45,529 nt of DNA from an uncultured Romboutsia sp. (GTDB lineage: Bacteria > Bacillota > Clostridia > Peptostreptococcales > Peptostreptococcaceae), in NCBI GenBank assembly GCA_904418825.1, contig CAJFPU010000004.1, positions 1-45,529 on the forward strand. The letters run 5' to 3'. The notes under the pieces were generated by a model. That model was not told where the DNA came from. It was given only the letters and a program-made list of their open reading frames with translations, and searched no databases. Positions 7,349-45,529 of the stretch are shown one piece after another (the first letter of the stretch is position 1; every line of letters starts with the position of its first letter). A program made the translations under genes and the position numbers.

Positions 7349-7392
7349 GTTGTGACTTATAGGTTCAAAAAATTTAATAGGGGGAAGTGCTA

Positions 7393-19665: not shown

Positions 19666-19677
19666 AGGAGATAAATT

Positions 19678-23187: not shown

Positions 23188-23249
23188 GGAGTTTTAGTTT
23201 ATTGAAGAATATAAAATAAGCTAAATGAAATTATAACTAGAGAGAACTC

Positions 23250-23297
23250 AAAAGTGTAAGTATTAATTATTAAAGTTAAAACTTGCACTTTTGTTTT
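23250..23297 (+). terminator. Terminator after the methylase gene
   Basis: AAAAGTGTAAG / CTTGCACTTTT stem (one G-T pair) followed by GTTTT; separates the operon from the next gene. Confidence 0.65.
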
Positions 23298-23316
23298 AAT
23301 AATTAGGGGTGTCAGA

Positions 23317-24039: not shown

Positions 24040-24109
24040 AGAAGAGTATAGATATATTTATAATGTATGATTTCATGTACTTTTATAATGTATGCAGAAA
24101 TTGTATAGA

Positions 24110-24283
24110 AATATGTAAAAATGTAAGTATAAATGTCCTTCTAATTCTATAAATAATTACTTATATTATAGATAACATCATAAGGAGGACCCAAATAGGC
24201 AATGTATATAGGAAGGTATTTAAAGAAAAAAGAGAAGTAAAAGGATATACCTGGAGTTATTATAAGATGATTAGAAAAAATTA
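24110..24283 (+). pseudogene. Decayed leader and N terminus of a second TPR-type XRE regulator
   Basis: This stretch aligns with 27020-27200, the leader and start of the XRE-TPR gene. Shared pieces are ATAAATGTCC, AAATAATTA, the AAGGAGG ribosome binding site and the start codon region (ATGTATATAGGAAGGTATTT against ATGCATATAGGGAAATACTT). After about 80 coding bases the frame is broken by stops and the match fades. Only the leader and first HTH helices remain. The copy lies beside the NERD helicase gene. Confidence 0.8.
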
Positions 24284-24313
24284 ACTTAAAGTTATTCAAC
24301 TATAGTTTAATCT

Positions 24314-24346
24314 CATAGATTGTAGCAAAAAATGCTACAATCTATG
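24314..24346. terminator. Bidirectional hairpin after the NERD-helicase gene
   Basis: Perfect 13-base arms CATAGATTGTAGC / GCTACAATCTATG with a 7-base loop. Confidence 0.75.
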
Positions 24347-24363
24347 ATGACCTTATTTTCATT

Positions 24364-26043
24364 TTAGTGCGCTTTAAGCATATATAATATTTCTTGAGCA
24401 CGAGTGCAACCAACGTATTTTAATTGATCAGTCTTAATATTTTTCACAAAAAAATCTTTATCTATTAGAAATACTAATTTAAATTCTAGTCCTTTAACTG
24501 TATGAACTGTATAAACTTTATTATAGTCAATAATACAATTCTTACATTTTTTGATTTTATCTTTAAGATCTTCTACAACTTTATTTTGAGCTGTTAATAT
24601 TGCATAATTGTCATCTATATCTAATTTTCTCAATTCATTATCTATAAAATTGATTATGCTATTATAATTAATTCTTTTTTTAGTAACATCAATACCAGTA
24701 ACATTTAAAAACTCAATATTTCTATAGCAATCATAATAGTCAGAAGTATTGATTTCTGAATTCAGAAAATCAGAGAAGGTCAACTGATTACATTTAGATA
24801 AATCACATTCATCATATGAAAATTGAGCAATATTCTTAGTATTTCTATAATTTTTATAAAGAGTATCAACTTGTTTTACTATACCTTCTAATGAATAATT
24901 ATTCCCATAAATATTTTGAATAGCATCTAATGCTATTATAAAATGACTTAATTCTGGATTTTTTAAAAGAGATTTCACTAATATTAATTCTTCTTTTTTA
25001 AAGTCTTGAACTTCATCAATAAAAATAGCCTTATATTTAGGACACTTAGAACTAGATAAAATACGATTTTTAAGTAGATTTATATTACTTATATCATTTA
25101 AATTACCTATATCAAAATTAAGATTAGTTATATGAGATAGGTTAATTAAAAAAGATGATTTTGTGCTTACATGAATATTCTTGTGTAACTTTAAATCATC
25201 ATATATATAATCTTTTAATTTATTAGTATGTGTTAAAAATAATATTTCTTCATCTTTATTCTGATCTGCAAAATAATGTGCACGAGATTTTAGTAAAACA
25301 GTTTTACCACTTCCGGAAACTCCTCTAAGTAGTATTTGGCTATTGTTATGCCATTTTTCTACTTTTTCTCTTTGATTGTTATATAGGCTAGCAAGTAGAT
25401 TAGAAAAACTGTGTTCAAATTTTATTTCATTAACTATAAATTTATATATATTACATATTACTTCATTAGTTAAATATTTAGTAGTTTTATACGTAAAGCA
25501 ATTTTTTATTATTGTATCTAAATCATCATAATTATTGGACATTTTAAGGTTATTTATATCTTCTAAAAATAAATAATCTGTACTTAAATGTTTAGATTCA
25601 TCAAAACCTTTTGATATAAAATCTTTTTTACTTATATTTGGAAAGACTACGACTCTGTCCCATCTTATATTTAGTTTCTTGAACTCTGAATTAAAATTTA
25701 ACGTATTAATTAAGTATCTAGAATAATCCTTAGCTTGTCTATATGGATTTGTTTCTACATCTTTATCTATTAATAAAATGCCACTATCATGTGAAAATTT
25801 TTTCATATAACCAATATTCCAATCTTTAATTTCCACAACTAGTACTCCATACTTACTTATAATAACAAAATCTGGATTATATTCTTTACTATCATTATAT
25901 TCACATTTTACAGCGTTTAATTCTGTGTCATATAAAGCTATGTAATCATCATTTAAATATTTAGATAATATTTGATAAAAAGTATATTCACCCTTTTGCA
26001 TATTACAAAGATTATCTAAATTTTCAGGATATATTTTGCCCAT
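24364..26043 (-). CDS. NERD nuclease domain plus UvrD/Rep-type helicase (defence candidate)
   Basis: The N-terminal NERD (nuclease-related) domain shows the D...ExK-like core NPDFVIISKYGVLVVEIKDW at residues 56-75. After about residue 230 comes a superfamily-1 helicase: Walker A LRGVSGSGKTVLLKSRA, motif II AIFIDEVQDF (DEVQ), and C-terminal motifs VYTVHTVKGLEFKLVFLID and LKYVGCTRAQEIL. The helicase is short, with the 2B region reduced. NERD-helicase fusions are frequent in defence islands and act on foreign DNA. The gene is transcribed against the neighbouring defence genes. Start ATG with AGGGGGATTAT upstream. Confidence 0.9.
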   Translation of the reverse strand: MGKIYPENLDNLCNMQKGEYTFYQILSKYLNDDYIALYDTELNAVKCEYNDSKEYNPDFVIISKYGVLVVEIKDWNIGYMKKFSHDSGILLIDKDVETNPYRQAKDYSRYLINTLNFNSEFKKLNIRWDRVVVFPNISKKDFISKGFDESKHLSTDYLFLEDINNLKMSNNYDDLDTIIKNCFTYKTTKYLTNEVICNIYKFIVNEIKFEHSFSNLLASLYNNQREKVEKWHNNSQILLRGVSGSGKTVLLKSRAHYFADQNKDEEILFLTHTNKLKDYIYDDLKLHKNIHVSTKSSFLINLSHITNLNFDIGNLNDISNINLLKNRILSSSKCPKYKAIFIDEVQDFKKEELILVKSLLKNPELSHFIIALDAIQNIYGNNYSLEGIVKQVDTLYKNYRNTKNIAQFSYDECDLSKCNQLTFSDFLNSEINTSDYYDCYRNIEFLNVTGIDVTKKRINYNSIINFIDNELRKLDIDDNYAILTAQNKVVEDLKDKIKKCKNCIIDYNKVYTVHTVKGLEFKLVFLIDKDFFVKNIKTDQLKYVGCTRAQEILYMLKAH

Positions 26044-28725: not shown

Positions 28726-28989
28726 GTGAATAAAACAATAGGTTCAAGGATACAAAAAATAAGAATAAAGAAAAACTTAACAATAAGAGAACTATGCAAT
28801 TTAACTAAAATAGATGAAGTATCACTGTCTACATATGAAAGTGGAATAATAGAGCCAAGTGTTAGAGAAATAGCAATAATATCAAGAGTATTAAATGTAA
28901 CATCAGATTATATATTAGGACGTATAGATGAAGAAACAAATGATTTATATATACTAAATAGATATAAATATTATAATATAAATAGTTAA
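28726..28989 (+). CDS. Small XRE transcriptional regulator
   Basis: An 87-residue single HTH protein (IQKIRIKKNLTIRELCNLTK, then SLSTYESGIIEPSVREIAII), ending in a short polar tail. Start GTG at 28726 with AAAAGGGGA upstream. It follows the TPR regulator by 63 bases and may be co-transcribed; it lies just upstream of the MntA/HepT locus. Confidence 0.85.
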   Translation: MNKTIGSRIQKIRIKKNLTIRELCNLTKIDEVSLSTYESGIIEPSVREIAIISRVLNVTSDYILGRIDEETNDLYILNRYKYYNINS

Positions 28990-29068
28990 TAAAATAATAA
29001 AAATAACTTTATCGGATAGTGTAAAAATCATTTAATAGTGAATTGTTTTAACTATATATAAAATGTGG

Positions 29069-29172
29069 TATAATAAATTAGATAGTAAGCAAATAATTGA
29101 AGTTGCCACTAGGGATTATATAAAAGTAAATATTAAGAGCTCTGGAAACTTTATAAGACCAGAGCCTTTTTA
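29069..29172 (+). ncRNA. Short terminated transcript upstream of mntA (candidate attenuator or sRNA)
   Basis: A perfect -10 box TATAAT (29069-29074, weak -35) is followed after about 60 bases by an intrinsic terminator GCTCTGG / CCAGAGC plus CTTTTTAG (29139-29170), 40 bases before mntA. RNA polymerase starting here would make a roughly 90-nt RNA unless it reads through into the toxin-antitoxin genes. No known riboswitch core is recognised in it. Confidence 0.45.
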
Positions 29173-29212
29173 GTACTATAAATTTTATAAATATATAAGA
29201 GGTGATTTAGAG

Positions 29213-29593
29213 ATGAGAAATATATCACAGGAAACTAAAGACTCAATAGTAAATATATTTCCTAAAGAAAATACTCTAGCAATTATAATATTTGGTAGTT
29301 TTGGTACAGACAGAGCAACCTATAATAGTGATATAGATATAGCATGGATACCAACTAAAAAAGTACCGATTACAGAACTTGCAGTTAAAACTCAATCTCT
29401 AAGAAATGTATTAGATATTGATGTGGATTTAAAAATTGTTACAGATAATTATACAGTAGAACTTAGAAAAAATATATTCGAAGGTGATATCATATATCAA
29501 TCTAAAGAGTTTCAAGATTATCTAAATAATTTTTATATTGAAAATAGTGATGTTATAGATATATTAAACTGGAGGGATATGCATGGTAGTTAA
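29213..29593 (+). CDS. mntA: MntA-type nucleotidyltransferase antitoxin
   Basis: Minimal nucleotidyltransferase of 126 residues. The GS-x10-D-x-D signature is intact (GSFGTDRATYNSDIDI) at about residues 24-39. In characterised HepT/MntA systems the antitoxin inactivates the HEPN RNase toxin by adding AMP units to a tyrosine near its active site. The gene overlaps hepT by 11 bases, a coupled operon in the antitoxin-first order. Ribosome binding site AAGAGGTG. Confidence 0.93.
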   Translation: MRNISQETKDSIVNIFPKENTLAIIIFGSFGTDRATYNSDIDIAWIPTKKVPITELAVKTQSLRNVLDIDVDLKIVTDNYTVELRKNIFEGDIIYQSKEFQDYLNNFYIENSDVIDILNWRDMHGS

Positions 29594-30017
29594 AAATAAA
29601 TTAGCTTGGAGTTCTATAGAAGCTGTAAATAGAGATTTTGGATCATGTTTATATGATTTACAAAACTTTAAAATGTTATATAACAAAGAGGATATGCCAC
29701 CTTTATGGGAGAGATATATTAAGGAAGGTTTTAAAAATTATATGGTTTCTTTCTTGGAATTAACAAAAGCTATGCTATATTATAAGACTATTGATTTAAA
29801 TATAAAATCTAAGAATTTTTATGATTATCTTTTGGCGTGTGAGTATCATAACTTATTGCCTAAAAATTCTGCAATAGTTATAGAAACACTTCGTAAGTTA
29901 AGAAATGATGATTCACATGGTTATGATATACCTGAGTTTGAAGAAATGTATGAGCTGTTTACAGAAAATGAAGATGTGTTTGTTAGTATAAGAAATAGTT
30001 GTAATAGTAATTTATAA
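29583..30017 (+). CDS. hepT: HepT-type HEPN RNase toxin
   Basis: A 144-residue alpha-helical HEPN protein. The catalytic R-x4-H-x-Y motif is complete (RNDDSHGY, about residues 104-111); the Tyr is the residue AMP-modified by MntA in the studied systems. Ribosome binding site GGAGG within the end of mntA. Toxin plus antitoxin may stabilise the element or act in abortive defence. Confidence 0.93.
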   Translation: MVVKNKLAWSSIEAVNRDFGSCLYDLQNFKMLYNKEDMPPLWERYIKEGFKNYMVSFLELTKAMLYYKTIDLNIKSKNFYDYLLACEYHNLLPKNSAIVIETLRKLRNDDSHGYDIPEFEEMYELFTENEDVFVSIRNSCNSNL

Positions 30018-30589
30018 TAGATTAGAAAAAGATTTAATAAATAGTATGTTAATTAAATTAATCTAGTAATTGGATTAGTAGATATTAAAATTTTAAAGTT
30101 ATATAATATGATATACATAGTATAATATGTACTGGGATCTGCTTCGCATAAATTAACCTTCGGTTATTCAGCCCCGGTATGGTGAAAACTTACACTTCGT
30201 AAAAACTAAGACATACAAGGTGATGCTACATTTTAGCTCATATTACATAGGAAAAATTGACTATGATATGAGCTAAAATGTAGCTTTATTTGTGTGCTAA
30301 CTATTTACTACATTTCAGCTTTCACCATACTCCCACCGCGCTCTCTGCTCCCCCACCTCCTATCCCTTATATATTAATTAGGGAATTAAAAAATACATTG
30401 AATGAGTTATTATATATAGTATTAATTTATGCTCTTCAATGGTTTTAATTTAGTATCTTCTATTAATTGACAGTTAAATAACAAGATGCTACCATTTATG
30501 ATGATAAAGAATATAATTGTACTTGTATCATTAGAATTAGTACTAAGATATTAACTTGAGTATTAATTTTAACCTAAAATCTTTGATAT
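30018..30589. other. 572-base gene-free region with nested inverted repeats
   Basis: Contains the hairpin repeat copy 2 (30225-30284). Around it lies an outer inverted pair GTATGGTGAAA (about 30178) / TTTCACCATAC (about 30322). GC-richer islands (CCTTCGGTTATTCAGCCCCGG and CCACCGCGCTCTCTGCTCCC) interrupt otherwise AT-rich DNA. No ORF with a credible start. This could be a decayed mobile repeat or a non-coding RNA; nothing identifies it. Confidence 0.5.
30225..30284. repeat. Hairpin repeat, copy 2
   Basis: Near-perfect 24-base arms (GCTACATTTTAGCTCATAT / ATATGAGCTAAAATGTAGC plus ACATAG / CTATG). Shares most of its right arm with copy 1 at 26897. The two copies bracket the XRE-TPR, XRE, mntA and hepT genes. 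Confidence 0.8.
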
Positions 30590-30808: not shown

Positions 30809-31327
30809 ATGAATAATAAAACAAAGAAGTTATGTATTGCGAGTATTTTATGTACTGTAGCTATTATTGGGAGTATGTTTTCAATTCCTGTATTTGGTAG
30901 TAAATGTTCTCCAATTCAGCATATGGTAAATATTCTTTGTGCAGTAGCACTAGGACCATGGTATGGTATTGGAGTAGCTTTTACAGCAAGTTTAATACGT
31001 AATATTTTGGGAATAGGAAGTATAATGGCTTTTCCAGGAAGTATGTTTGGTGCATTATTTTGTGGAATTGCATATTGGAAATATAAAAGCATAACTGTTA
31101 CTTTAATTGCTGAAGTTTTAGCAACCTCTATATTAGGAGGATTTAGTGCTTATCCTATTGCAACTTTGATAATGGGTGTTGATGCAGGAAGTATTGCGTA
31201 TTATGGATATATTTTGCCATTTTTTATTTCAACTTTAGGTGGAGCAATTCTATCAGCATTTATTGTTATAAATTTAGAAAAAGCTGGTGGATTGAGTATA
31301 TTTAAAGAATATAGAGAAGTAAAATAA
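30809..31327 (+). CDS. thiW: ThiW, S component of an ECF transporter for a thiamin precursor
   Basis: A 172-residue integral membrane protein with about five to six membrane segments. Recognisable ThiW sequence includes FSIPVFGSKCSPIQHMVNIL and CAVALGPWYGIGVAFTASLI near residues 24-65, then AFPGSMFGALFCGIAYW. ThiW is the substrate-binding subunit thought to take up the thiazole precursor with the shared ECF energising module, which is not encoded here. Ribosome binding site AAAAGGGG. It has its own leader and is separated from thiD by a TPP riboswitch. Confidence 0.93.
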   Translation: MNNKTKKLCIASILCTVAIIGSMFSIPVFGSKCSPIQHMVNILCAVALGPWYGIGVAFTASLIRNILGIGSIMAFPGSMFGALFCGIAYWKYKSITVTLIAEVLATSILGGFSAYPIATLIMGVDAGSIAYYGYILPFFISTLGGAILSAFIVINLEKAGGLSIFKEYREVK

Positions 31328-31399
31328 GTAATTTAGAAAAAAATAATAATTGACTTTAGAATAAAATCTACTATAATTAAATTAAAAATAAATAATTAA

Positions 31400-31481
31400 T
31401 GCTAGGGGTGCCATTGGCTGAGAGGTTATAAACCGACCCTTATTACCTGATCTGGTTAGTACCAGCGTAGGAAAGCAACAA
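31400..31481 (+). promoter_or_regulatory. TPP riboswitch (THI element)
   Basis: Conserved core visible in order: AGGGGTGCC, GGCTGAGA, ACCCTTA, ACCTGATCTGGTTAGTACCA and GCGTAGGAAA. Upstream of thiD and followed at 31541 by an intrinsic terminator, so it should stop transcription of the salvage operon when thiamin pyrophosphate is plentiful. Confidence 0.97.
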
Positions 31482-31540
31482 TAAATATTAATATAATAAT
31501 CTAAGTAATAAAAAGATAATTATAATAAATGTAAATTTGG

Positions 31541-31572
31541 AAGCTATACCTATATCAGGTATAGCTTTTTTA
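31541..31572 (+). terminator. Riboswitch-controlled terminator
   Basis: AAGCTATACC / GGTATAGCTT stem followed by TTTTT, 32 bases before thiD. Confidence 0.92.
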
Positions 31573-31603
31573 TTTGTCAAAATCATTTAAAGGAGTATAA
31601 AAT

Positions 31604-32395
31604 ATGAAAAATTACAAAATACCCACATTAACAATTGCTGGGTCGGATTCATCAGGTGGAGCTGGTATTCAAGCTGACTTAAAAACTTTTTCAGCTATAG
31701 GAACTTATGGAATGAGTGTTATAACAGCTATAACTGCTCAAAATACACAAGGTGTATTTGAGGTAGAGGAACTAAGTTCAAATATAATAAAATCACAGAT
31801 AAAAGTAGTATGTGAGGATATATCACCAAAAGCAATTAAAGTTGGTATGGTATCTTCTCCACAAATTATAAAGGATATAGTAGATACTTTAGACCAATAT
31901 CCTTGTGAATACTTAGTAGTTGACCCAGTTATGATTTCAAAAAGTGGTTACTCATTACTAAGACCAGAGGCAAAACAAAATTTAATAAAATATCTTATAC
32001 CTAAGGCATACATAGTAACACCAAATATTCCAGAGGCAGAAGAAATAACAAATATGAAAATAGAAACTGTTGAAGATATGAAAAAAGCAGGTCAAATAAT
32101 ATTAAATTTAGGTCCAAAGTATGTGCTTATGAAGGGTGGACACTTAAATGGAGATTGTGTAGACATACTTATAGGAAAAGACTTATTTGAAGTTTTTGAA
32201 GGTGAAAGAATAGACAGAAAAAATACTCATGGAACAGGTTGTACAATATCTTCAGCTATAACATCTCATTTAGCATTAGGATATGACATAAAAGAAGCTG
32301 TAAGACTTAGTAAAGAATATATAACAGAAGCTATAAGACATAGTTTTGACATAGGAAAAGGCGTTGGACCAGTACACCATTTTTATAAATTTTAA
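31604..32395 (+). CDS. thiD: HMP / HMP-phosphate kinase ThiD
   Basis: Phosphorylates 4-amino-5-hydroxymethyl-2-methylpyrimidine (HMP) twice to HMP-PP. Ribokinase-fold family of normal length (263 residues). Signatures are TIAGSDSSGGAGIQADLKTF (residues 9-28), VVDPVMISKSG near 107, TPNIPEAEEIT, and the anion-hole NTHGTGCTISSA (about 205-216) with catalytic Cys/Asp region. First gene after the riboswitch; ribosome binding site AAAGGAG. Confidence 0.97.
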   Translation: MKNYKIPTLTIAGSDSSGGAGIQADLKTFSAIGTYGMSVITAITAQNTQGVFEVEELSSNIIKSQIKVVCEDISPKAIKVGMVSSPQIIKDIVDTLDQYPCEYLVVDPVMISKSGYSLLRPEAKQNLIKYLIPKAYIVTPNIPEAEEITNMKIETVEDMKKAGQIILNLGPKYVLMKGGHLNGDCVDILIGKDLFEVFEGERIDRKNTHGTGCTISSAITSHLALGYDIKEAVRLSKEYITEAIRHSFDIGKGVGPVHHFYKF

Positions 32396-32423
32396 AAAAT
32401 AATTGGAATATGGAGGGATTAGT

Positions 32424-33227
32424 ATGGTAAAAATATTTGATTTAATAGATAAGGTTAAAAAGATAAACCCATTAATACTACATTATACAAATAACGTAAC
32501 TATAACAGATTGTGCAAATGCAACTTTAGCAATAGGTGCAAGTCCACTTATGAGTTTTTCCTATGAAGAAGTTGATGATATAGTAAAAGTCTCTAGTGCT
32601 GTTGTAATAAATATAGGGACTATGAATAGTCAAATTTTAGATTTATTTGTTTTAGCAGGAAAGACTGCTAATAAATATAACAAGCCAGTTATACTAGACC
32701 CAGTAGGTGTGTTTGCTACTAAAGCTAGAAGTGAATTTACTAATAAGTTACTTAATGAAGTTAAGTTTGATGTTATTAGAGGTAACATATCAGAAATACA
32801 ATTTTTAGGTGGTTTAGATGTAAATGGAAAGGGTGTAGATTCTTTCGATGATGGAAGTGATTCTACACACATAGTTGAATCTGTTGCGAAAAAACTAGAG
32901 TGTGTAGTTGTAGCATCAGGAAAGATAGACTTAATAAGTGATGGTGAAACTACTTATAAAATACAAAATGGTAGCTCAAAATTAAAGTTTATAACTGGTA
33001 CAGGATGTATGAGTACAAGTTTAATAGGAAGTTTCTTACCATGTGCAGACAATATAATTGACGCAGCTGTTATGGGTACGCTTGCAATGAGTATAAGTGG
33101 AGAAATAGCGGATAAAGAAAATCCAGCAATAGGAACATATAAAACTTTGTTATTTGATAATTTATTCTTATTAAATAAAGAAACTTTAGAAACGTATGCA
33201 AGAGTTGATATTAAAGGTATAAATTAA
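32424..33227 (+). CDS. thiM: Hydroxyethylthiazole kinase ThiM
   Basis: Phosphorylates the thiazole alcohol for thiamin salvage. Family motifs are LHYTNNVTITDCANATLAIG near residue 19, DPVGVFATKARSEF, and ITGTGCMSTSLIGSF (catalytic Cys, about 193-207). I place the start at ATG 32424 because TGGAGGG is correctly spaced; the track ORF adds seven residues without a site. 28 bases after thiD. Confidence 0.97.
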   Translation: MVKIFDLIDKVKKINPLILHYTNNVTITDCANATLAIGASPLMSFSYEEVDDIVKVSSAVVINIGTMNSQILDLFVLAGKTANKYNKPVILDPVGVFATKARSEFTNKLLNEVKFDVIRGNISEIQFLGGLDVNGKGVDSFDDGSDSTHIVESVAKKLECVVVASGKIDLISDGETTYKIQNGSSKLKFITGTGCMSTSLIGSFLPCADNIIDAAVMGTLAMSISGEIADKENPAIGTYKTLLFDNLFLLNKETLETYARVDIKGIN

Positions 33228-33247
33228 CTATTATGGGGGAGAAAGAA

Positions 33248-33910
33248 ATGTTAATTACAGATTATTTATTTGAAAATGTAAAGCCTATATGGGATGCATA
33301 TTTAGAACATGATTTTATAATGGATATGGGAAATGGAAATCTATGCAAGGATAAATTTAAAGATTATTTGATACAAGATTATCTTTATTTAAAAGAGTAT
33401 GCAAAAGTATATGCTATGGCTTTGGTAAAATGTAAAAATATAGAACAAATGAAGTTTTGCCAAAATAGTATAAATGGTATCTTAGAAGATGAAAGTGCAA
33501 CGCATATTTGGTATCTAAAAAACTTTGGAGAGAAAATAGAAGAACTTGAAGACTATAAAATAAAAGAAGCTAATGAAAACTATACAAGTTATATGAAATC
33601 TATAGCTCTTACAGGTGATTTATTAGATACTATGGTAAGTGTTTTACCATGTGCTTGGAGCTATTATTATATAGGTAAAAAATTAAAAGAAACTTATAAA
33701 GAAAATTTAGAAGATAACTTTTATAAAAGCTGGATAGAATCTTATTCCTGTGAAGGTTATGAACAAGTTGCAAGAACTAGTATAGAGTTTGTAAATACAT
33801 TGAGTGAAAATATTGATGAGAATAAAAAAGAAAAATTAAAAGACATATTTACAAAAGCAAGTATTTATGAAATGGAATTTTGGGATATGGCATATGAGGA
33901 GATTAAATAG
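33248..33910 (+). CDS. tenA: TenA aminopyrimidine aminohydrolase
   Basis: Hydrolyses base-degraded thiamin pyrimidine (aminoaminomethyl form) to HMP for salvage. 220 residues. The catalytic Cys is in VLPCAWSYYYIG (about 136) and the late Glu in YEMEFWDMAYE (about 210); D and Y residues of the pocket are present in KDYLIQDYLYLKEYAKVYA. Start at ATG 33248, with GGGGGAG of the ORF-track start serving as the ribosome binding site. Its stop overlaps the GTG start of thiE by one base. Confidence 0.95.
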   Translation: MLITDYLFENVKPIWDAYLEHDFIMDMGNGNLCKDKFKDYLIQDYLYLKEYAKVYAMALVKCKNIEQMKFCQNSINGILEDESATHIWYLKNFGEKIEELEDYKIKEANENYTSYMKSIALTGDLLDTMVSVLPCAWSYYYIGKKLKETYKENLEDNFYKSWIESYSCEGYEQVARTSIEFVNTLSENIDENKKEKLKDIFTKASIYEMEFWDMAYEEIK

Positions 33911-34542
33911 TGATAAATAAAGAGAAATTAAAGAAAGACCTTAAACTATACTTAGTTACAGATTCAGAAATATTAAAAGATAGAGACTTTTATAAATGTA
34001 TAGAAGATGCCATAAAAAGTGGAGTTACTATGGTACAACTTAGAGAGAAAAATACAGATGGTAAAGAGTTTTTAGAAAAGGCAATAAAACTTAGAGAACT
34101 TACTAATAAGTATAATGTTACATTTGTAATTAATGATAGAATAGATATAGCAATGCTTGTAGATGCAGATGGAGTTCATATAGGACAAAGTGATATAGAT
34201 GCAGTTTCTGCAAGAAAGTTACTTGGAGATAATAAAATTATAGGAGTTTCAGCTAGAAACTTACAAGAAGCTAAGATAGCTAAAGAAAATGGTGCAGATT
34301 ACTTAGGTATTGGAGCGATGTTTTCAACTTCAACTAAAAGTGATGCAAAGTTAGTTTCTTTTAATACATTAGAAGAAATTATAAAAGAAGTAAATTTACC
34401 TTTTGTATTAATTGGAGGTATAACTTTAGATAATGTTAAAAAATTAAAACACTTTAAACCTGATGGATATGCTTTAGTATCAGGTATTTTAGGCACAGAT
34501 GATATAAGTAAACGAGTTGAGAAATGGTATGAAAGAATTTAA
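33910..34542 (+). CDS. thiE: Thiamin-phosphate synthase ThiE
   Basis: Joins HMP-PP and thiazole phosphate to thiamin phosphate in a TIM barrel. Motifs are LVTDSEI at the start, VQLREKN, NDRIDIAMLVDADGVHIGQSD, GIGAMFSTSTKSDA and VLIGGITLDN. The usual GPIFPTxTK loop is here GAMFSTSTK, still with the phosphate-binding residues. Start is GTG 33910, translationally coupled to tenA. 210 residues. Confidence 0.96.
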   Translation: MINKEKLKKDLKLYLVTDSEILKDRDFYKCIEDAIKSGVTMVQLREKNTDGKEFLEKAIKLRELTNKYNVTFVINDRIDIAMLVDADGVHIGQSDIDAVSARKLLGDNKIIGVSARNLQEAKIAKENGADYLGIGAMFSTSTKSDAKLVSFNTLEEIIKEVNLPFVLIGGITLDNVKKLKHFKPDGYALVSGILGTDDISKRVEKWYERI

Positions 34543-35170
34543 AGGAGCAATATTTGATTTAGATGGAACTATTATAGATTCTATGGATGTTTGGGAAACT
34601 ATAGATATTAAGTTTTTTGAAAAAAGAAATATTACTATGCCCAATGATTATATAGAAAAAATAAATTCTATGAGTTTTGAAGAAGTGGCTAAATACACAA
34701 TAGAAAGATTTAATTTAAATGAAAGTGTTGATAGTTTAATAAAAGAATGGAATGACATGGCAATTTATGAATATAGCAATAATATTAAATTAAAGCCTAA
34801 TGTAAAAGAGTATTTAGTTAAACTTAAAAAACATGATATAAAGATAGGCTTAGCTACATCTTCACCAAAAGAACTTTATGAACCAGTACTTAAAAATAAT
34901 AAAGTATATGATTATTTTGATACATTCACATCAGTAGATGATGTTAAAAGAGATAAAAACTATCCAGATATATATTTATATACAGCTAAGAAACTAGGTT
35001 TATATCCAAATGAGTGTATTATATTTGAAGATATACTAATAGCTATAAATACGGCTAAAGAATCTAACTTTAAGGCAATTGGTGTTTATGATAAATCATC
35101 ATATAATGATTTAGATAAAATAAAAGTTAAGAGTGATAAGTTTATATATGATTTTAAAGAATTATTATAG
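34529..35170 (+). CDS. HAD-superfamily phosphatase in the thiamin operon
   Basis: A beta-phosphoglucomutase-like HAD hydrolase with motif I FDLDGTIIDSMDV (nucleophile Asp and acid/base Asp), motif II ATSSPKEL and motifs III/IV KRDKNYPDIY ... IIFEDI. A C1-type helical cap lies between. I take ATG 34529 inside thiE (14-base overlap); the TTG at 34517 is less likely. Its place as last gene suggests dephosphorylation of a thiamin-pathway phosphate, but the substrate is unknown. Confidence 0.88.
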   Translation: MKEFKGAIFDLDGTIIDSMDVWETIDIKFFEKRNITMPNDYIEKINSMSFEEVAKYTIERFNLNESVDSLIKEWNDMAIYEYSNNIKLKPNVKEYLVKLKKHDIKIGLATSSPKELYEPVLKNNKVYDYFDTFTSVDDVKRDKNYPDIYLYTAKKLGLYPNECIIFEDILIAINTAKESNFKAIGVYDKSSYNDLDKIKVKSDKFIYDFKELL

Positions 35171-35260: not shown

Positions 35261-36045
35261 ATTATTAAAAATAGATATAATTTAAACATTGTATTAAAAT
35301 ATAGAGTTTTATTATAGTTACATTAATTTTTTTATTATATATATTTAACTTATTATATTACTATTAGATATAGTGGCTATTGTTTATGTAGTAGCTAATG
35401 TATGTACATAAGATTTTAATACTTATGGAGTTTGGCTTCGCCACCGCGCTTTACGTTCCAATCTTTTGAGTAAAAACCACTCAAAGTAGTTCGCCCACAC
35501 GTGGCTCAAAAGGATTTCCACTACAATCCCTAACTCAAAACCATGTTTATATATTTTGTTGAGTTATAAACCTTGATGTGGATTTTAAATATGGAGCGTA
35601 GAGTAGATATAAGTTAAGGCCTTCGGCCGTGCCCCTCTGACTAATCCCAAAAGCACTCACACTATTCGCTACTAACATACTTCGCAAACATCATATTTCA
35701 TATCAAGTTTGCTACGTATCTTAGCCGCTCATTTGTGCTCGTAGCTTCTTTGGAATAGCCATTCACTGCCCTAAGCCCAATGCCCAGTTTCTAGGTTTTA
35801 TTGGGTGCATGAACCTTACTTAATTTATTAAGCCTCCACATTTTCTATAAAATACATATCAATAATTTATAGTGCAAGTCTCCTACTATACATATGAGTC
35901 TATTTACCTGGTGTCGGCAATGTATCTTATTGTTTGGTATACCGCATTGGATAAAATCGTTGCTCCGCTATCCAATGCTGGTGTATATATAGCTTTTAAA
36001 GCAGATATATTAGCATTTAAAATTATATAGGTTATTAAGAATTTA
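35261..36045. other. 785-base gene-free region, partly GC-rich
   Basis: No ORF with a credible start on either strand. From about 35430 to 35830 the composition becomes markedly richer in G and C (for example GCTTCGCCACCGCGC, GGCCTTCGGCCGTGCCCC), unlike all flanking DNA. A perfect hairpin GCATTGGATA / TATCCAATGC lies at 35944-35978. The texture is like that of the gap at 30120-30360. It could be a structured non-coding RNA or debris of another replicon. Confidence 0.5.
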
Positions 36046-37133: not shown

Positions 37134-39710
37134 ATGAAGGAATATTTAAATGAAATTAAAAGTATAAGCAAGATAGGTAGAATATTAGAAGTATCAATTG
37201 TATCAAGTATAATATTAATATTGTTAGATAGAATCAATATAGTTACTAAATTATTTTCTAATAATTTTACAATAGTTATATCTATTTTAGTCTTAGGATA
37301 TATAATATTAAGAATTATGGAACTAAACGTATTTGATTTGTATAAGTTAAACGTTATAAATGATATAGACTTAGTATTAATATATATGCTTTTTACAAGT
37401 ATTATTTTAGTTATAAGCTCTTCAGTTATATTTAATCAATTTACATATAGGTCAGATGTTTGTATATTTATAATATTAATTTTAATTATATTTATATATG
37501 GTAGGAGTAGAATAATTACTAATAATAGAAGAAATTCAGAGAATGATTTATATAATATATATGATCTTAAAGATTTATTTGAAGATAAAATAGATATACA
37601 GAATAAGGCTATATTAATTGATGAAGAAGCTGTAAATTATGATTTACTAGGAAGAGATATATTTATAAATAATTTATATAATACTATAGTAGATAATAAG
37701 GCAAGGAAAAAGTTTGTTATAGCTCTAGAGGGGCATTGGGGAAGTGGTAAAAGTACCATACTAAATATTGTAAAGAATAAACTAGAACCTCATGATGACA
37801 TAATAATTATAGATGATTTTGATCCCTGGAACTATAATGATCAAAGTAGCATGTTTAGAGCTATGTTTGATTCAATATTAAGAGCATCAAAAATAAGATT
37901 TAGCATGTCAGAGTCGAAAAAGTTTATAGATACAATGTGTGAAATGATATTTGATACTAAATATGGAAAGCAAATAAAAATATTAGATTTAAGAAGACAT
38001 GAAAAGTTTAATGAAATAACAAAAAAAAAAAAAATGATTAATGAATATCTTAATAAAAATAAAAAAAATGTTATTTTTATTATTGATAATATAGACAGAG
38101 CAGATAAAGAAAACGTAGGATTATTATTCAAGTTAGTAGGTAGTGTATTAGATTTTGAAAATATAACCTATATACTATCTTATGATGATACTAGAGTTAA
38201 AAATATTATGAGTGATGACTTAAATATTGATTATGATTATCTAAAAAAGATTATTCAACTTGAAGTGAAAGTACCAATTATTAATGATAATATAAAAATT
38301 AATGTGGTGGATAAATGTATTAAAAACTTATTGGCATTATATGGAACAGATAAGAATGAATTATATAAATATAATTCATTAACAAAAGGTATTTCAGATG
38401 TCATTAAGGATATTAGAGATTTAAAAAGATTTTTAAATTCTGTAATAACATTTTGTTATAGAAGTAATCAAAAGTTAAACCCTATAGATACAATAACTAT
38501 AGAAACAATAAAGATGTACAATATAGAGCTATATCAGTCAATTATAGAAAATAAAAGATATTTTATATCTGAAGATAAAATAAAAGATGCGGACCTGTAT
38601 AAAGATGTTTTTATTGGTTCAGATAAATTTAATACAGAGGGAAAAGATTATTTTGATTCTATATTTATTAAAGAAGAAAATAAAAAATTCCTAAATATAT
38701 TGTCAGAAATATTTCCTTATGTTAATAATTATAAAAACGGAAAAAAATTACGGAACCATGGAAATATAATATATCCATATGATAAAAATGAACAAGCTAG
38801 TAGAGTAAAAGAAAAAAGAATATATAGTGCAAAGTTTTTTGATTTATATTTTACTGAATCATCAAATTATTTTACATACATAAATGATCTGGTAGATAAA
38901 TTTATAGATAAAATTAATAATGGCAATTCAATAGAATTGAGAGAGAGTTTTATAAACAGTATACCAAAAGATATTCATAGTGAATTTTTTAATACATTAT
39001 ATTTATTTATAAGTGAAATTAATAAAGATAAATTAATAGATACTTTAAATATATTATTTGAGAATATTAAATATATTGATAATTATAAAGGATTCAGTGA
39101 ATTAAGTGCTAGAAATAGAACTTGTGTAATAATATCTGATATTTTACTTATTATAGATGAAGAAAATCTTGATAACTTTATAGAAAGTGTTAGATTTGAA
39201 TATTCTAAATTACGAATAATTAGCAATATAGATTATTGGATCGATAAAGATAAAGAAGCAGAAGAATCTCACAAAGAAATTGTGTATAATAAATGGAATA
39301 AGATGTATCAAGGAATGTCTTGTAGTATATATGATAATAATATAAGTATATATGAATCCTACTATATGGAATATAATATTTATGGTCTAGCACAAGGTAT
39401 ACAGGGAACTTCAAGAGATATTAAAAATTATATTAAAAAAGTATTAAATGAACAAAATATTATAAGATTTTTGTTTGATATTATGTCTAAATCAACAGGA
39501 ACTAAAGTTACATACTATATAAAATTAGAGTCTATAAATACATTCACTACAGAAGATGAAATAAATTTAATACTTGATAGGAAAGATAGCTATTCTGAAG
39601 ATGAAAAAATTGTACGAGATATTTATAAAATATCTATGGAACATAAGGGCGAAGAATTTATAGATGATGAAAGATTAACATTTGATCAAGATATAGATTT
39701 TAAAATATAA
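37134..39710 (+). CDS. Membrane-anchored KAP-family P-loop NTPase (defence candidate)
   Basis: 858 residues. Four membrane segments occur in the first 123 residues (about 15-33, 44-63, 79-100, 107-123). A KAP NTPase domain follows with Walker A EGHWGSGKST (199-208), the KAP feature DDFDPWNYNDQSSMFRAMFD, and Walker B VIFIIDNIDR (about 315-324). The long acidic C-terminal half (about 450-858) has no recognised domain. KAP NTPases such as PifA-type proteins are linked to phage exclusion, with the N-terminal anchor at the inner membrane. Ribosome binding site AGGAGGGG. Confidence 0.88.
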   Translation: MKEYLNEIKSISKIGRILEVSIVSSIILILLDRINIVTKLFSNNFTIVISILVLGYIILRIMELNVFDLYKLNVINDIDLVLIYMLFTSIILVISSSVIFNQFTYRSDVCIFIILILIIFIYGRSRIITNNRRNSENDLYNIYDLKDLFEDKIDIQNKAILIDEEAVNYDLLGRDIFINNLYNTIVDNKARKKFVIALEGHWGSGKSTILNIVKNKLEPHDDIIIIDDFDPWNYNDQSSMFRAMFDSILRASKIRFSMSESKKFIDTMCEMIFDTKYGKQIKILDLRRHEKFNEITKKKKMINEYLNKNKKNVIFIIDNIDRADKENVGLLFKLVGSVLDFENITYILSYDDTRVKNIMSDDLNIDYDYLKKIIQLEVKVPIINDNIKINVVDKCIKNLLALYGTDKNELYKYNSLTKGISDVIKDIRDLKRFLNSVITFCYRSNQKLNPIDTITIETIKMYNIELYQSIIENKRYFISEDKIKDADLYKDVFIGSDKFNTEGKDYFDSIFIKEENKKFLNILSEIFPYVNNYKNGKKLRNHGNIIYPYDKNEQASRVKEKRIYSAKFFDLYFTESSNYFTYINDLVDKFIDKINNGNSIELRESFINSIPKDIHSEFFNTLYLFISEINKDKLIDTLNILFENIKYIDNYKGFSELSARNRTCVIISDILLIIDEENLDNFIESVRFEYSKLRIISNIDYWIDKDKEAEESHKEIVYNKWNKMYQGMSCSIYDNNISIYESYYMEYNIYGLAQGIQGTSRDIKNYIKKVLNEQNIIRFLFDIMSKSTGTKVTYYIKLESINTFTTEDEINLILDRKDSYSEDEKIVRDIYKISMEHKGEEFIDDERLTFDQDIDFKI

Positions 39711-39758: not shown

Positions 39759-39767
39759 TTTAATTGG

Positions 39768-40292
39768 TTATATTAAATTATATTTTTCCAAATTATTTTT
39801 AATCTTTTCATATAAACTTACTCTAACAATACCACCATTAAACCAATATCTAAATAAACCACGAGAGATTCCAAGTTTATTAGCTGCTACTTCTAGAGTA
39901 TAATTATTTTCTTTTATCCATAATTTAAGCTTATCCAAAAATTTATCAAAGTTATATATGAGTTTTGTATAACCTTCAATACATAGGTATTCTATATCAA
40001 ATTTAGATGCGAGTAGATTAAGTACTTCCTTAGTAGGATAATATCTATTACACTCATAACCACTTATAATAGAATTTGTAACATTGCATAGCTTAGCAAC
40101 TTCAGGAATAGATAATCCTAACTCGATACGAGACTTTCTAAGTCTATCTCCAAATGTATCTTCTTTAAACTTAGGAGATAAGCTTATATCTACAGAATCA
40201 ATGTCTTTTAGTTCATGAGTGATAGTTGTATCTAACTTAGGTAAATCTACAATAGTATTATCTTCTAAAGTAGCACTTTTATAGATAGCGCA
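39768..40292 (-). CDS. Start-less two-HTH reading frame: predicted C-terminal extension of the recombinase in circular form
   Basis: Missed by the ORF track because it has no ATG, GTG or TTG before codon 119. From the attR core it is open for 174 codons. It encodes one XRE HTH (FGDRLRKSRIELGLSIPEVA, residues 48-67, then CNVTNSIISGYE) and a second HTH (IKENNYTLEVAANKLGISRG, 126-145, then LFRYWFNGG). When attL and attR recombine, recombinase codon 541 (AGA) is followed in frame by this sequence. In the integrated state the frame upstream is host ATPase DNA in another phase with no start, so it should be silent. Coding character is clear; the fusion is predicted from sequence, and its role (autoregulation or directionality) is inference. 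Confidence 0.85.
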   Translation of the reverse strand, partial: CAIYKSATLEDNTIVDLPKLDTTITHELKDIDSVDISLSPKFKEDTFGDRLRKSRIELGLSIPEVAKLCNVTNSIISGYECNRYYPTKEVLNLLASKFDIEYLCIEGYTKLIYNFDKFLDKLKLWIKENNYTLEVAANKLGISRGLFRYWFNGGIVRVSLYEKIKNNLEKYNLI

Positions 40293-40861
40293 TCTGAAAT
40301 ATCGTGCGTTACGAGAATTGCAGATTTACCTTCATTTTTAATTATTCTATAAACATCATCACTAACTAAAATCCTTGTCTGATAATCAAGTGCTGAGAAT
40401 GGTTCATCAAGTAAAAGTATATCAGGATCTACCGCAAGTGTACGGATAAGTGCAACTCTTTGTCTCATACCACCTGATAACTCTTTAGGATACATATTTC
40501 TAAAATCCCATAAATCATAAGTTTTTAATAGTCTTTCAACTCTTTTCATTGCTTCATCAGTTTTTTGATTTTGGATTTCAAGACCAATAGTTATATTGTC
40601 CATAATATTTCTCCAATCTAGTAAGTGATCTTTTTGAAACATGTATCCAATTTTTCCATTTATAATTACATCTCCACTAGTAGGTTTTAAAAGATTAGTT
40701 AGTATGTTTAGTATTGTTGATTTTCCAGAACCACTAGGACCAAGAAGAGTTAATATTTCCCCTTCAATTAAGTTAAAGGTTATGTTTTTTAAGACTTCAA
40801 GCTCTCCATCTTTGGTATAAAATGTTTGAGAAAGGTCTGAAATTTTGACCATTTCTTTCAT
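40265..40861 (-). pseudogene. 5' fragment of the interrupted ABC-transporter ATPase
   Basis: SsuB/TauB/ThiZ-type nucleotide-binding protein. Walker A GPSGSGKST, Q-loop MFQKDHLLDWRN, signature LSGGMRQRVALIRTL, Walker B ILLLDEPFSALD and H-loop LVTHDIS are all present. Host sequence ends at 40293; the last residues before the stop (ALSIKVLL) are element-encoded. I place the start at ATG 40861 (GGGGGTGACTAAT upstream); the track ORF's 22 extra residues are untranslated leader. Rejoined to 797-609 it gives 251 residues, the family norm. Loss of the C-terminal quarter probably inactivates it. Confidence 0.93.
40269..40318 (-). other. attR of the serine-recombinase element
   Basis: Minus-strand core GA at 40294-40293. 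Element-side arm TGCGCTATCTATAAAAG mirrors the attL arm at the same distance from the core. Host-side arm encodes THDIS of the ATPase. Confidence 0.88.
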
Positions 40862-41025
40862 ATTAGTCACCCCCAAGAAGTTTTTGGTATATATTATTGT
40901 ATTAATTTGAGGAGGGATTTGTACCATTTTTTAAAATTTAATGTGTAAAATATACTATACAATGGGTAAATGGTATAAGAGCTATTTTTTTAGGCGAGGT
41001 CGTGTTTTATAACGTGGGGGTATAA
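40862..41025. other. Upstream region of the ABC operon
   Basis: Leader and presumed leftward promoter of the ATPase gene; TTTACC with a 17-base spacer to TACACA (about 40970-40942) is the best but weak candidate. No TPP riboswitch core is present, so thiamin control of this transporter is not supported by the leader. Confidence 0.4.
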
Positions 41026-41537
41026 ATCTCCATAGTAAAAATATTTCTATATTTACTTTATGACAAATTTTAAGACAAGCTAATATATAATTTATGAGAC
41101 TCATAGAAGGATTATAGAAACTTAAATAGGTTATAACATAGAAACTGTTAAATCTATTTTAGAAATATTTAAAGACAGTTTATGTTAGGAAAAAATCATT
41201 ATATTAGATAAAGCATAGCAAGATTGTAAGAATTAATGTAAAAAAAGTGTATAGAAAAAGAGCTTTTAAATGTTAAGAGTAGATAAGTTATAGAATTATT
41301 TCAACTTTGAGAACCTCTATGGGGAAAAAGAAAAATATAAAGAAAATAATTCTAGGTATGTTGATAAAAAATCTTTTTAATGAAAAGCTTAAATAATATA
41401 AGTAAGTTTAAAGCTTTGTATGATCAAGATGTATGACTTATAAATATAATTGTTGGATAGTTGTTAATAGATATTTTATAAAGTATTGATTATGAAATGT
41501 TTAAAATGACTATAGAAATTGATAATGATAAAGGTAA
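41026..41537 (+). pseudogene. Decayed copy of the element's DnaD-like gene, in host flank
   Basis: Aligns with 7470-8065 of the DnaD-like gene. Matching runs include AAAAATATTTCTATATTTA, ATTATAGAAACT, GAAACTGTTAA/G, TGTATAGAAAAAGAGCTTT-like and GAAATGTTTAAAA. Many stops (for example after TTATGAGACTC and AGAAACT) and internal deletions, including the lysine-rich linker region, show that it is dead. It lies outside attR, upstream of the ABC ATPase gene, so it was left by a different, older element. Confidence 0.85.
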
Positions 41538-41921
41538 TACTCAACTTAGTATAGATATTGATTTAACTAGTACAACGTTCTATGTTAATATAAAGTTAAA
41601 ATAAAAAATGATAATAATATAAAATTTAAATAAAATATTCGTATTTGTATGTACTATAATAAGGTATTTAATTAAATTTTAAAAAAAATTATTGATATAT
41701 ACTAAATAGATAAAAAAACTATATTTAAAAAAATAAAGAATATAAAGTCTAAAAAATACCACTAATTTATATAAAATGAATTAAAAATACAATAGAATTG
41801 AAAAAAAATAATAAAATAGTATACATTATTTGTAAAAATATGTTATTATATAAAAAACATAAATACGAACTATTTAAATATGTTCGGAAATGTTTAAAAA
41901 AATACTTGGGGGAAAAATATA
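41538..41921. other. AT-rich region before the nucleotidase gene
   Basis: About 380 bases, extremely AT-rich, with no credible ORF (the track ORF 41798-42043 overlaps the nucleotidase start in another frame). It should hold the nucleotidase promoter; no single box stands out. Confidence 0.5.
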
Positions 41922-44900
41922 ATGATAAAGAGAAATGGACAACGTATAGCAGCCATAGCTATGACAGTAGCATTAATGGGACAAAATGTATCACCAATTT
42001 TTTCATTAGAAAGCTTAAAGGGCATAGAAACTGTAACAAGTGAAAATGAAGCTAAAGCAGAAGAACTTGCACCGCAAGATCAATATGAAGAAACTGAAAA
42101 ATCTGAATTAGAAGAAACAGAATTTGAAGAATCATCAGAAACTGAAATTGAAAAATCAGAGACTGAAGAAATAAAATCTAAAGAAGTACAAGCTATTGAA
42201 GAAGCAGCTGATAAAACAAATACTGATAAAGCAACAATAGACTTTAAAGTATTAGCAACAAGTGATTTACATGCAAACTTAATGAACTATGATTACTATA
42301 CTGGTTCAGAAACAAATAATTCAGGGTTAGTTAAGGCTGCAACAGTTATAAAAGAACAAAAAGAACAAGCTAATAAATCAAAAAAATCATCAGTAGATAA
42401 TGTATTATTAGTAGATAATGGAGATACAATACAAGGAACTCCGCTAGCTAACTTATATGCTATAAAACAACCAGTAAAACCTGGTCAAAAATATCCAGTA
42501 TATGAAGCCTTAGAATCTTTAGGATATGATATGACAACTATAGGTAACCATGAAGTTAACTATGGTATGGATTTTATAAAGCAAATAACAGCTGCAAACA
42601 CTAGTATGGGAATGGTTTGTGCAAATCTTAAAGATGCTAAATCTGGAAAGTTAGTATTTGATCCATACAAAATATTAACTGAAAAAGTTGTAGACTCTAA
42701 TGGACAAGAAAGAGAGTTAAAAATAGGTATAACTGGAGTTGTTCCAACACAAATTTTAAACTGGGACAAAGTTATATTAAATGGTGAAGTGGCAGTTGAT
42801 GAAATGGATGAAGCTGTAAAAAAATATACTAAAGAAATGAAAGATAATGGTGCTGATATAGTTGTTGTACTTGCTCATACAGGATATGGTGATAAAACAA
42901 CAAATGTAACAGGTGCAGAAAATGCAGGATATGCATTATCTATGATAGAAGATGTAGACGTAGTTGTTGGTGGACACGTACACAAAAGTGAAAAATACAA
43001 TGTTCAAAAAGATAATGGAGATATAACTCAATATGTTCAACCACTTAATAATGGTAAAGAGGTTGGGGTAGTTGACCTTAAAATAGATGTAACAGAAGAA
43101 AATGGTAAAGTTACATATAAAATAAATGACTCAGAAAGTAAAATAAATAACGTAAGTACAAAAGATAAAAAAAATGATGAAGCAACAGAAGCTGTTGTTA
43201 AAGAATATCACAAAGCTACAGATGCATATGTAAATGAAAAATCAGGAGAAGTTACAAAAGACTTAAATAGTTTCTTTACATTAGTAGCAGATGATCCATC
43301 AGTACAAATAGTATCTGATGCACAAAAAGCTTATGTTGAAAAATTAATAAAAGATAATGATCCAAGTTTAGCTAAGTATGCTGACCTTCCAATATTATCA
43401 GCAGCAGCTCCATTTAAAGCAGGAAGCAGTGCGGACAATTATGTTGATATAAAAGCAGGAGGTCTTGCTATAAGAGACTTATCTAACTTATATAAATATG
43501 ATAATACAGTATCAGTTATAAAATTAACTGGTTCAGATGTAAAAGAATGGTTAGAGTTCTGTGCTAATATGTTTAATACAATAAATCCTAACTCAACTAA
43601 AGAGCAAGACTTAATAAACAGAGATTTCCCTACATTCAACTTTGACGTATTAGATGGAGTTGAATATGAAATAGATGTAACTAAAGCTCCTAAGTATGAT
43701 AAAAATGGACAAGTAATAAATCCTAATTCTTCAAGAATATACAACTTAACTTATAATGGACAACCTATAGACTTAGACCAAGAATTCTTAATAGCTACTA
43801 ATAACTATAGAGCTGGTGGAAATAGCTTCCCATGGCAAGGTAGACAAGAAATAGTTTATAATAGTACAGATGAAAGTAGAGATGTATTAAAGCAATATAT
43901 AGAAGATGCTGGAAGATTAGAGCCAAGCGTAGATAACAACTGGAAATTTAAAGCTGTAAATACAAATGCTAAAGTATACTTTACTTCTCATGAAAATGGA
44001 GCAAATTACTTAGCAAACTATCCTGCAATATCAACAGAAAAAGAAGTAGCAGGAGATAGATTATACAAATATTACTATGATTTATCAAACACTCAAGAAA
44101 AAGAAGAGTCAAATAAAATAACAATATTACATACAAACGATACTCATGGTAGATTAAAAGCTGATAGTAAAGTAATAGGTATAGATACTGTTGCTGCAAT
44201 AAAAAATAATACTAAAAACTCAATATTAATTGATGCAGGGGATACTATACACGGTTTACCATTTGTAACATTAAGTAAAGGTCAAGATGCAGTTGATTTA
44301 TTAAATGCAGCTGGATATGAATATATAGTTCCTGGTAACCATGACTTTAACTATGGATACTCAAGATTAATGGAATTATTTAAAAATAGTGTAACATTAA
44401 AAAGCGGTGAAAATAAACTTAGATTATTAGCTTCTAATATAAATAAAGATGGAAAATCTGTGTTTGAAGCTAATCACATAAAAGAAATGGAAGTTAACGG
44501 AAAAACTGTTAAAGTTGGATTCTTTGGTATAGCTACACAAGAAACAGCTTACAAAACTAATCCAAACAATGTTAAAGGGATAGAATTTACTAGTCCAGTA
44601 GATGCAGCTAAAGAACAAGTTGAAGAGTTAGAAAAACAAGGTGCAGATGTAATAGTAGCTTTATCACATGTTGGTACTGATGAAAGTAGTGATCCTACAG
44701 CATATGATGTTATAAAAGCTGTTGATGGTATAGATGTATATGTTGATGGACACAGTCATACAACATTTAAAAATGGTGAAAAAGTAAATGATACTTTATT
44801 AGTAAGTACAGGAGAATATTTATCAAACCTTGGTAAAGTTGAAATAGAATTAGATGAAAATAATGAAGTAGTAAATGCTACTGCAAGCCTTATAACTAAA

Positions 44901-45529
44901 GAAGAAGCTTCAAAAGTAACTCCAGATGCAAAAGTTGCTGCTAAAATAGCTGAAATAGATAAAGCACAAGGTGAAGTATTATCTGAAGTAATAGGAAAAA
45001 ATACTATAGAATTAGATGGAGAAAGAAACAGCGTAAGATTTGGAGAAACAAACTTAGGGAACTTAATAACTGATGCTATGATGGATGAAACTGGTGCAGA
45101 CTTAGCTATAACAAATGGTGGTGGAATCCGTGCTAGTATAAAAGTAGGAGATATCACAAAAGGTGATATAGTAAGTGTTTTACCATTTGGTAACTTTGTA
45201 GTTACAAAACAACTTACAGGAGCTCAAATAAAAGAAGTTCTTGAATTTGGTGTAAGAAGCTATGGAGAATCTTTAGGTGGATTCCCACATGTAGCAGGTA
45301 TAAAATTTGTAGTAGATCCAAGCAAGCCAGTTGGAGATAGAATAATATCTTTAACTATAAATGGTGAAGCTTTAGATATGAACAAAACTTATACAGTAGC
45401 AACAAATGACTTTACTGCAGCAGGTGGAGATGATTACCCATGCTTTGCTGATGTTCCAACAATAAACGAATACTCTTCATTAGAAGAAATATTAGCAAAC
45501 TTTATAAAAACTTTAGGAACTGTTAGCTA
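41922..45529 (+). CDS. Secreted bifunctional 2',3'-cyclic-nucleotidase / 5'-nucleotidase (3' end outside window)
   Basis: The ORF track omits this gene because it runs off the right edge. Start ATG 41922 with TTGGGGGA upstream; more than 1200 codons. Signal peptide (MIKRNGQRIAAIAMTVALMG), then an acidic Glu/Ser-rich spacer. The first metallophosphatase domain has VLATSDLHANLM, DNGDTIQGTPL, IGNHEVNYGMDF and GGHVHKSE, followed by its 5'-nucleotidase C domain. The second metallophosphatase domain has ILHTNDTHGRL, DAGDTIHGLPF, PGNHDFNYG and DGHSHTTF, with a second C domain (NGGGIRASI, TNDFTAAGGDDYP). This is the YfkN/CpdB-UshA double architecture, for extracellular nucleotide scavenging. Host gene, not element. 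Confidence 0.94.
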   Translation, partial: MIKRNGQRIAAIAMTVALMGQNVSPIFSLESLKGIETVTSENEAKAEELAPQDQYEETEKSELEETEFEESSETEIEKSETEEIKSKEVQAIEEAADKTNTDKATIDFKVLATSDLHANLMNYDYYTGSETNNSGLVKAATVIKEQKEQANKSKKSSVDNVLLVDNGDTIQGTPLANLYAIKQPVKPGQKYPVYEALESLGYDMTTIGNHEVNYGMDFIKQITAANTSMGMVCANLKDAKSGKLVFDPYKILTEKVVDSNGQERELKIGITGVVPTQILNWDKVILNGEVAVDEMDEAVKKYTKEMKDNGADIVVVLAHTGYGDKTTNVTGAENAGYALSMIEDVDVVVGGHVHKSEKYNVQKDNGDITQYVQPLNNGKEVGVVDLKIDVTEENGKVTYKINDSESKINNVSTKDKKNDEATEAVVKEYHKATDAYVNEKSGEVTKDLNSFFTLVADDPSVQIVSDAQKAYVEKLIKDNDPSLAKYADLPILSAAAPFKAGSSADNYVDIKAGGLAIRDLSNLYKYDNTVSVIKLTGSDVKEWLEFCANMFNTINPNSTKEQDLINRDFPTFNFDVLDGVEYEIDVTKAPKYDKNGQVINPNSSRIYNLTYNGQPIDLDQEFLIATNNYRAGGNSFPWQGRQEIVYNSTDESRDVLKQYIEDAGRLEPSVDNNWKFKAVNTNAKVYFTSHENGANYLANYPAISTEKEVAGDRLYKYYYDLSNTQEKEESNKITILHTNDTHGRLKADSKVIGIDTVAAIKNNTKNSILIDAGDTIHGLPFVTLSKGQDAVDLLNAAGYEYIVPGNHDFNYGYSRLMELFKNSVTLKSGENKLRLLASNINKDGKSVFEANHIKEMEVNGKTVKVGFFGIATQETAYKTNPNNVKGIEFTSPVDAAKEQVEELEKQGADVIVALSHVGTDESSDPTAYDVIKAVDGIDVYVDGHSHTTFKNGEKVNDTLLVSTGEYLSNLGKVEIELDENNEVVNATASLITKEEASKVTPDAKVAAKIAEIDKAQGEVLSEVIGKNTIELDGERNSVRFGETNLGNLITDAMMDETGADLAITNGGGIRASIKVGDITKGDIVSVLPFGNFVVTKQLTGAQIKEVLEFGVRSYGESLGGFPHVAGIKFVVDPSKPVGDRIISLTINGEALDMNKTYTVATNDFTAAGGDDYPCFADVPTINEYSSLEEILANFIKTLGTVS

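Follow-up and report, generated by a model that had tools for sequence, protein, structure and literature searches.

What does a ruined replication gene record when it lies in host DNA immediately outside the right attachment site of an integrated element? The question is raised by a stretch of 45,529 nucleotides from an uncultured Romboutsia sp. (contig CAJFPU010000004.1), which we call the window. It carries an element at approximately 796-40295, with a large serine recombinase (LSR) at its left end and a reading frame with a helix-turn-helix motif (HTH) at its right end. A sequence-only reading of the window had pointed to a stop-riddled copy of the element's DnaD-like gene in the host flank, on the same strand as the element's copy, and had proposed that an older related element decayed there and that the locus is a recurrent insertion site. 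The features on which our analysis draws are collected in Table 1.

Table 1. Features of the window, with the evidence for each. Positions are counted from the first nucleotide of the window.
Feature	Position	Strand	Evidence
ABC ATPase, 3' piece	609-798	-	1-798 is 91% identical to the intact ATPase/permease of R. timonensis (G003)
Large serine recombinase, abutting attL	778-2418	-	Pfam Resolvase, Recombinase and Zn_ribbon_recom; C. difficile relatives at the same ATPase
attL half-site GCTTCTACCATCTCTATAGAAGTGCG, core TCT at 796-798	793-818		Alignment with the intact ATPase of G003
Intact DnaD-like gene of the present element (312 aa)	7387-8325	+	PHROG 6251 and 1701, Pfam DnaB_2
HTH reading frame (HTHr), right end of the element	39762-40295	-	39762-40934 is 81.6% identical to the attR-like scar of G003; translation
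attR half-site GTAGCACTTTTATAGATAGCGCATCT, core TCT at 40293-40295	40270-40295		Identical 25-base half-site in G001 (L057:9053)
ABC ATPase, 5' piece (5'A), ATG at 40859-40861	40296-40861	-	40281-40934 is 86-90% identical to intact ATPase genes of G001-G003
Variable interval from the ATPase upstream region to the host flank, the fossil its sole recognisable content	40935-41622		Comparison with R. timonensis; no other phage relics
DnaD-like replication pseudogene (phage), codons ~23-231 (the fossil)	41026-41537	+	blastn and tblastn to 7387-8325, frameshift-aware alignment, codon-position test
Host flank with surface nucleotidase gene	41676-45529	+	94% identity to the R. timonensis sequence next to this ATPase array

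The present element has the organisation of an LSR element. Its recombinase stands at one end, its target, the ATPase gene of a NitT/TauT-type ABC importer, is split once at a TCT core, and the half-sites of its joined ends (GTAGCACTTTTATAGATAGCGCATCT followed by ACCATCTCTATAGAAGTGCG) form a dyad as expected of an LSR attP. In another genome (G023), relatives of the LSR and of the HTH frame are adjacent, in the order expected for an unintegrated form. The exact type-1 half-site, the type found at attR of the window, was absent from viral contigs. When the ends are joined at the att core, the LSR reads in frame through attP into the HTH frame as a single open frame of 716 amino acids. Integration would split this frame into an LSR with the host-encoded tail SDLYE and an HTH frame that has no obvious start codon. 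Such a fusion is not universal, since in G023 the two genes adjoin in different frames.

The element also carries cargo. A thiamine salvage cluster at 30809-35170 has, by sequence, thiW, thiD, thiM, tenA and thiE, with a TPP riboswitch at 31394-31490. Its counterpart in R. timonensis (C5:1164559-1167056) is 80% identical, and no match was found in G001 or G002. The split transporter was considered as a thiamine-precursor importer, and this was dropped because no family model reached the cut-off and no TPP riboswitch lies beside the transporter. A MntA-like/HEPN-type gene pair (28983-30065) has a copy in G001 (C1:1382138-1383186) at 97.4% identity and another in R. timonensis at 93.6%, the latter placed outside the attR-like scar and not within an element. 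Defence-like genes at 16495-26043 and 37134-39710 include a PLD/SNF2 helicase, a type IIG restriction-modification gene, NERD-UvrD and a PifA-like protein. A match to Rfam Flavo-1 at 35438-35539 (- strand), in an unexpected host, scored 43.6, barely above the gathering score of 42.

The fossil matches the element's DnaD gene in two blastn segments on the same strand, at element positions 7454-7749 (73% DNA identity, E 6.9e-43) and 7866-8081 (70%, E 2.9e-22). A search of the host genome (83.5% complete, 177 contigs) returned the fossil, the element's copy, one weak match of 44 bp and nothing further. In a frameshift-aware alignment the fossil scored 175 against its best relative (G010), while 12 Markov-shuffled controls scored 44 or less. 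In the first stretch of this alignment, 87 codons align at 68% amino-acid identity and are broken by 4 stops and 2 frameshifts; the second stretch, aligned to R. weinsteinii contig G004_C103, has 3 stops and 1 frameshift. The protein motifs KYFYIYFMTN and KKCIEKELLNVKSR are nevertheless preserved. The second blastn match is partly A-rich, as it might be if the similarity were due to chance or to low-complexity matching in AT-rich DNA, but the E values, the shuffled controls and the two motifs refute this explanation, whose probability we regard as negligible.

Similarity to the DnaD family is thus significant, and the open reading frame is not intact. With 7 in-frame stops, 3 frameshifts and both ends of the 312-codon gene absent, the fossil is a pseudogene and not a working member of the family. 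Its divergence is nearly even over the three codon positions, both against the element's copy (0.26/0.23/0.28) and against G010 (0.27/0.22/0.34), unlike that between the two intact genes (G010 against the element's copy, 0.18/0.12/0.35). Purifying selection has therefore been lost, and the relaxed constraint is as expected for a pseudogene. What lies outside attR is a DnaD-like replication gene in neutral decay, and the sequence-only reading had its coordinates, strand and decay right.

The name DnaD-like was also well chosen, as the element's copy matches PHROG 6251 'replisome organizer' (E 9e-64), PHROG 1701 'DnaD-like helicase loader' (E 5e-35) and Pfam DnaB_2. Its neighbours are recE, recT and a DnaC-like gene. 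Matches to the fossil were found in 36 of 99 related genomes, the strong ones being intact DnaD-like genes. At all 14 loci inspected with their flanks, the intact homologues stand in phage replication modules, beside RecE, RecT, DnaC, Ant or LSR genes, so the fossil does not derive from a host gene. An intact host gene in relatives, the outcome that would have overturned the sequence-only reading, was looked for and not found; in particular, the orthologous flank of R. timonensis has no intact copy. The flank DNA had no match in phage and plasmid collections.

From which element did the fossil come? By DNA, no sequence matches it better than the element's own DnaD gene (74% over 478 columns). 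By protein, it is nearer to G010, G045 and G004_C141 (66-68%) than to the element's copy (62%). FastTree placed it at the base of a clade of G004, G010, G020 and G045. The placement by IQ-TREE was weakly supported, and grouping with the element's copy was not rejected (AU p = 0.31), so we claim no parent for it. The DNA match and the AU test would both suit a fossil derived from the present element's own lineage, by duplication or by aberrant excision and reinsertion at this place. We consider such an origin improbable: the protein comparison points to other relatives, and 26% DNA divergence and the loss of both ends need long decay, while the att sites and genes of the element are intact. The same divergence, together with the phage-module homologues, bears out the earlier proposal that an older related element decayed here. 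The fossil is probably all that is left of an older integrative element, derived from a phage and broadly similar in kind to the present one.

Further traces of that older element were sought in the flank, as the sequence-only reading had suggested, and neither other relics nor a second att-like site came to light. Searches of 40935-41675 by blastx and blastn gave no phage relic besides DnaD. For a second att half-site in 40940-41922, the best match had 10-11 mismatches, the same as in shuffled sequences. Since neither an att site nor an LSR relic lies beside the fossil in that interval, we can only infer that its parent was one of the LSR elements of this ATPase. Upstream of the ATPase start, homology runs out at about -72 to -91; the first base of the fossil is at -165. 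In R. timonensis, the interval adjoining the ATPase is occupied by approximately 6 kb of other genes where the window has the fossil.

The relatives show that LSR elements of Peptostreptococcaceae repeatedly target the ABC ATPase gene. The LSR of the present element is directed to one codon region (aa ~188-194) of this NitT/TauT-type ATPase gene. In R. timonensis, G001 and G002, all of the same genus, the ATPase is intact and 6-21 kb upstream of it lies an attR-like scar in which an HTH frame is joined to 5'A (the array region was masked in G002 and in part of G003). A scar of this kind lies beside an intact ATPase in G029, and G014 has a scar with its ATPase broken off at the contig end. There are two scars in G001. 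The inner scar carries a type-2 half-site (GTTGCACTTTGCAACATATAGC), and the outer, which is degraded, carries a type-1 half-site that equals the attR half-site of the window in 25 of 25 bases. Scars of different origin at one target, the mark of tandem accretion, are thus found together in the genome of G001 and not within the window. G001 also has a full attP-like type-2 dyad (GTTGCACTTTGTAAGATAGAGCTTCTGCTTTGTGTTCTAAAGTGC, L057:12022), about 0.3 kb upstream of the inner 5'A scar.

C. difficile genomes have an LSR 78-79% identical to that of the window between the ATPase halves. In genus g17, to which they belong (L086-L093), all eight genomes with a strong match have one LSR copy, and six of the eight copies have one or two in-frame TAG codons. 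These codons suggest that the insertion there may be old and decaying. Interruptions of the ATPase at aa ~172-188 also occur in Tepidibacter, Sporanaerobium and Clostridia MAGs (L150, L151, L157, L164, L174), and no relative of the window's LSR was detected at them. On contig C103 of R. weinsteinii (G004), a RecE-RecT-DnaD-DnaC element terminates in an HTH frame and an ATPase 5' piece. Phage phiCD27 reportedly integrates in an ABC-transporter ATPase gene. We found no description of the present ATPase as a recurrent LSR target in the open literature.

Replication modules and scars accumulate upstream of the ATPase in other genomes, in the orientation of the fossil throughout. We surveyed up to 19 kb upstream of the ATPase in 23 genomes and the downstream side in 19 of these. 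Replication modules or their relics lie upstream in R. lituseburensis (G009), G029, Peptostreptococcaceae bacterium VA2 (G045), G020 and G030, and every upstream DnaD, DnaC, RecT and RecE is on the strand that matches the fossil. None was found in the 19 downstream regions. Because the genomes are not fully independent (G009 and G029 are of one genus), the following p values are to be read with that restriction: 5/23 against 0/19 for replication genes alone, which is borderline (p 0.053), 7/23 against 0/19 with scars included (p 0.011), and 9/23 upstream when the scars of G001 and G002 just past 19 kb are added (p 0.002). A divergent RecT in G013 (36%) was left out of the count. These upstream scars and DnaD/DnaC modules or relics, at the same ATPase and in the same orientation, support the recurrent insertion site that had been proposed from the window.

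The parent of the fossil may instead have inserted at a different att site nearby, in the upstream region of the ATPase and not at the ATPase core. In G009, G029 and G045, other genes occupy the 2-9 kb that separate the modules from the ATPase. The module of G009 and G029 is separated from 5'A by 2.2 kb of other genes, so in these two the insertion may have taken place at a neighbouring site. The order in both, however, is module, ATPase 5' piece, intact ATPase, which is what tandem accretion would predict. G020, which is the closest parallel to the window, has two units, 86.7% identical to each other over 481 bp, and each consists of a DnaD relic fused directly to an ATPase relic. A second site was not recognised. 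A separate site is therefore unlikely, and insertion in the ATPase itself remains our preferred reading.

On that reading, the older element would have inserted in the ABC ATPase at the same att core, as the relatives lead us to infer. A later event may have made the ATPase whole again and deleted attL and the integrase from the older element, which, having lost both, would have been unable to excise and would have decayed. The present element would then have inserted in the restored ATPase and left the fossil just outside its attR. Insertion alone cannot give an intact ATPase beside an HTH/5'A scar, since the older unit has neither LSR nor attL on its inner side. One unequal exchange, in which an occupied allele recombines with an empty one (for example on sister chromosomes), could restore 5'A-3'A with its promoter. 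It would keep attR and the element body, and the left arm with the LSR would be replaced by the promoter and the intact ATPase. The rest of the old element would be stranded upstream of the ATPase and decay there. Repeated exchanges would build a one-sided graveyard of decaying elements, of which the fossil would be the last trace.

We put forward tentatively, as a possibility short of an even chance, that selection for the transporter is what grounds the elements in this ATPase, by way of such unequal crossover with an empty allele. The model would account for an intact ATPase next to HTH/5'A scars, for remains confined to one side and one orientation, for the absence of LSRs, and for the fact that it is replication genes from near the left arm that abut the ATPase. 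The two 5'A copies share 191 bp (95.8%) upstream of the start codon in G001 and only about 51 bp in G029. This difference is consistent with varied breakpoints and is not proof of them.

The locus can be read as a record of how phage-derived elements have come to occupy one host gene again and again. The record covers several genera, including that of C. difficile, and holds live sites as well as fossils. It raises the testable question of how the host regains a gene that is repeatedly interrupted, and whether the repair disables the element. In practice, the hotspot can also serve as a guide for finding and delimiting elements in Peptostreptococcaceae.

Like the phage DnaD-like and replisome organizer genes of PHROG 6251 and PHROG 1701, the fossil and its intact relatives belong to one sequence family, but the fossil is inactivated by stops, frameshifts and the loss of both ends. 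Like the skin element in sigK of C. difficile (PMC4430133), the present element is prophage-derived and lies with its site-specific recombinase inside a host gene; the target here is an ABC ATPase, and no evidence pointed to regulated excision. Decayed or 'grounded' prophages, as treated in a review (PMC6379469), likewise lose their integration functions and decay in place, whereas here decay has gone down to a fragment of a single replication gene beside a reused site. Tandem accretion at a shared attachment site has been described for ICEs and IMEs (PMC5704250), and the elements and scars at this ATPase are similarly stacked at one target gene in one orientation. They differ in that an intact target gene stands beside the scars, in that the older units have no attL and integrase, and in that the window retains just one decayed gene.
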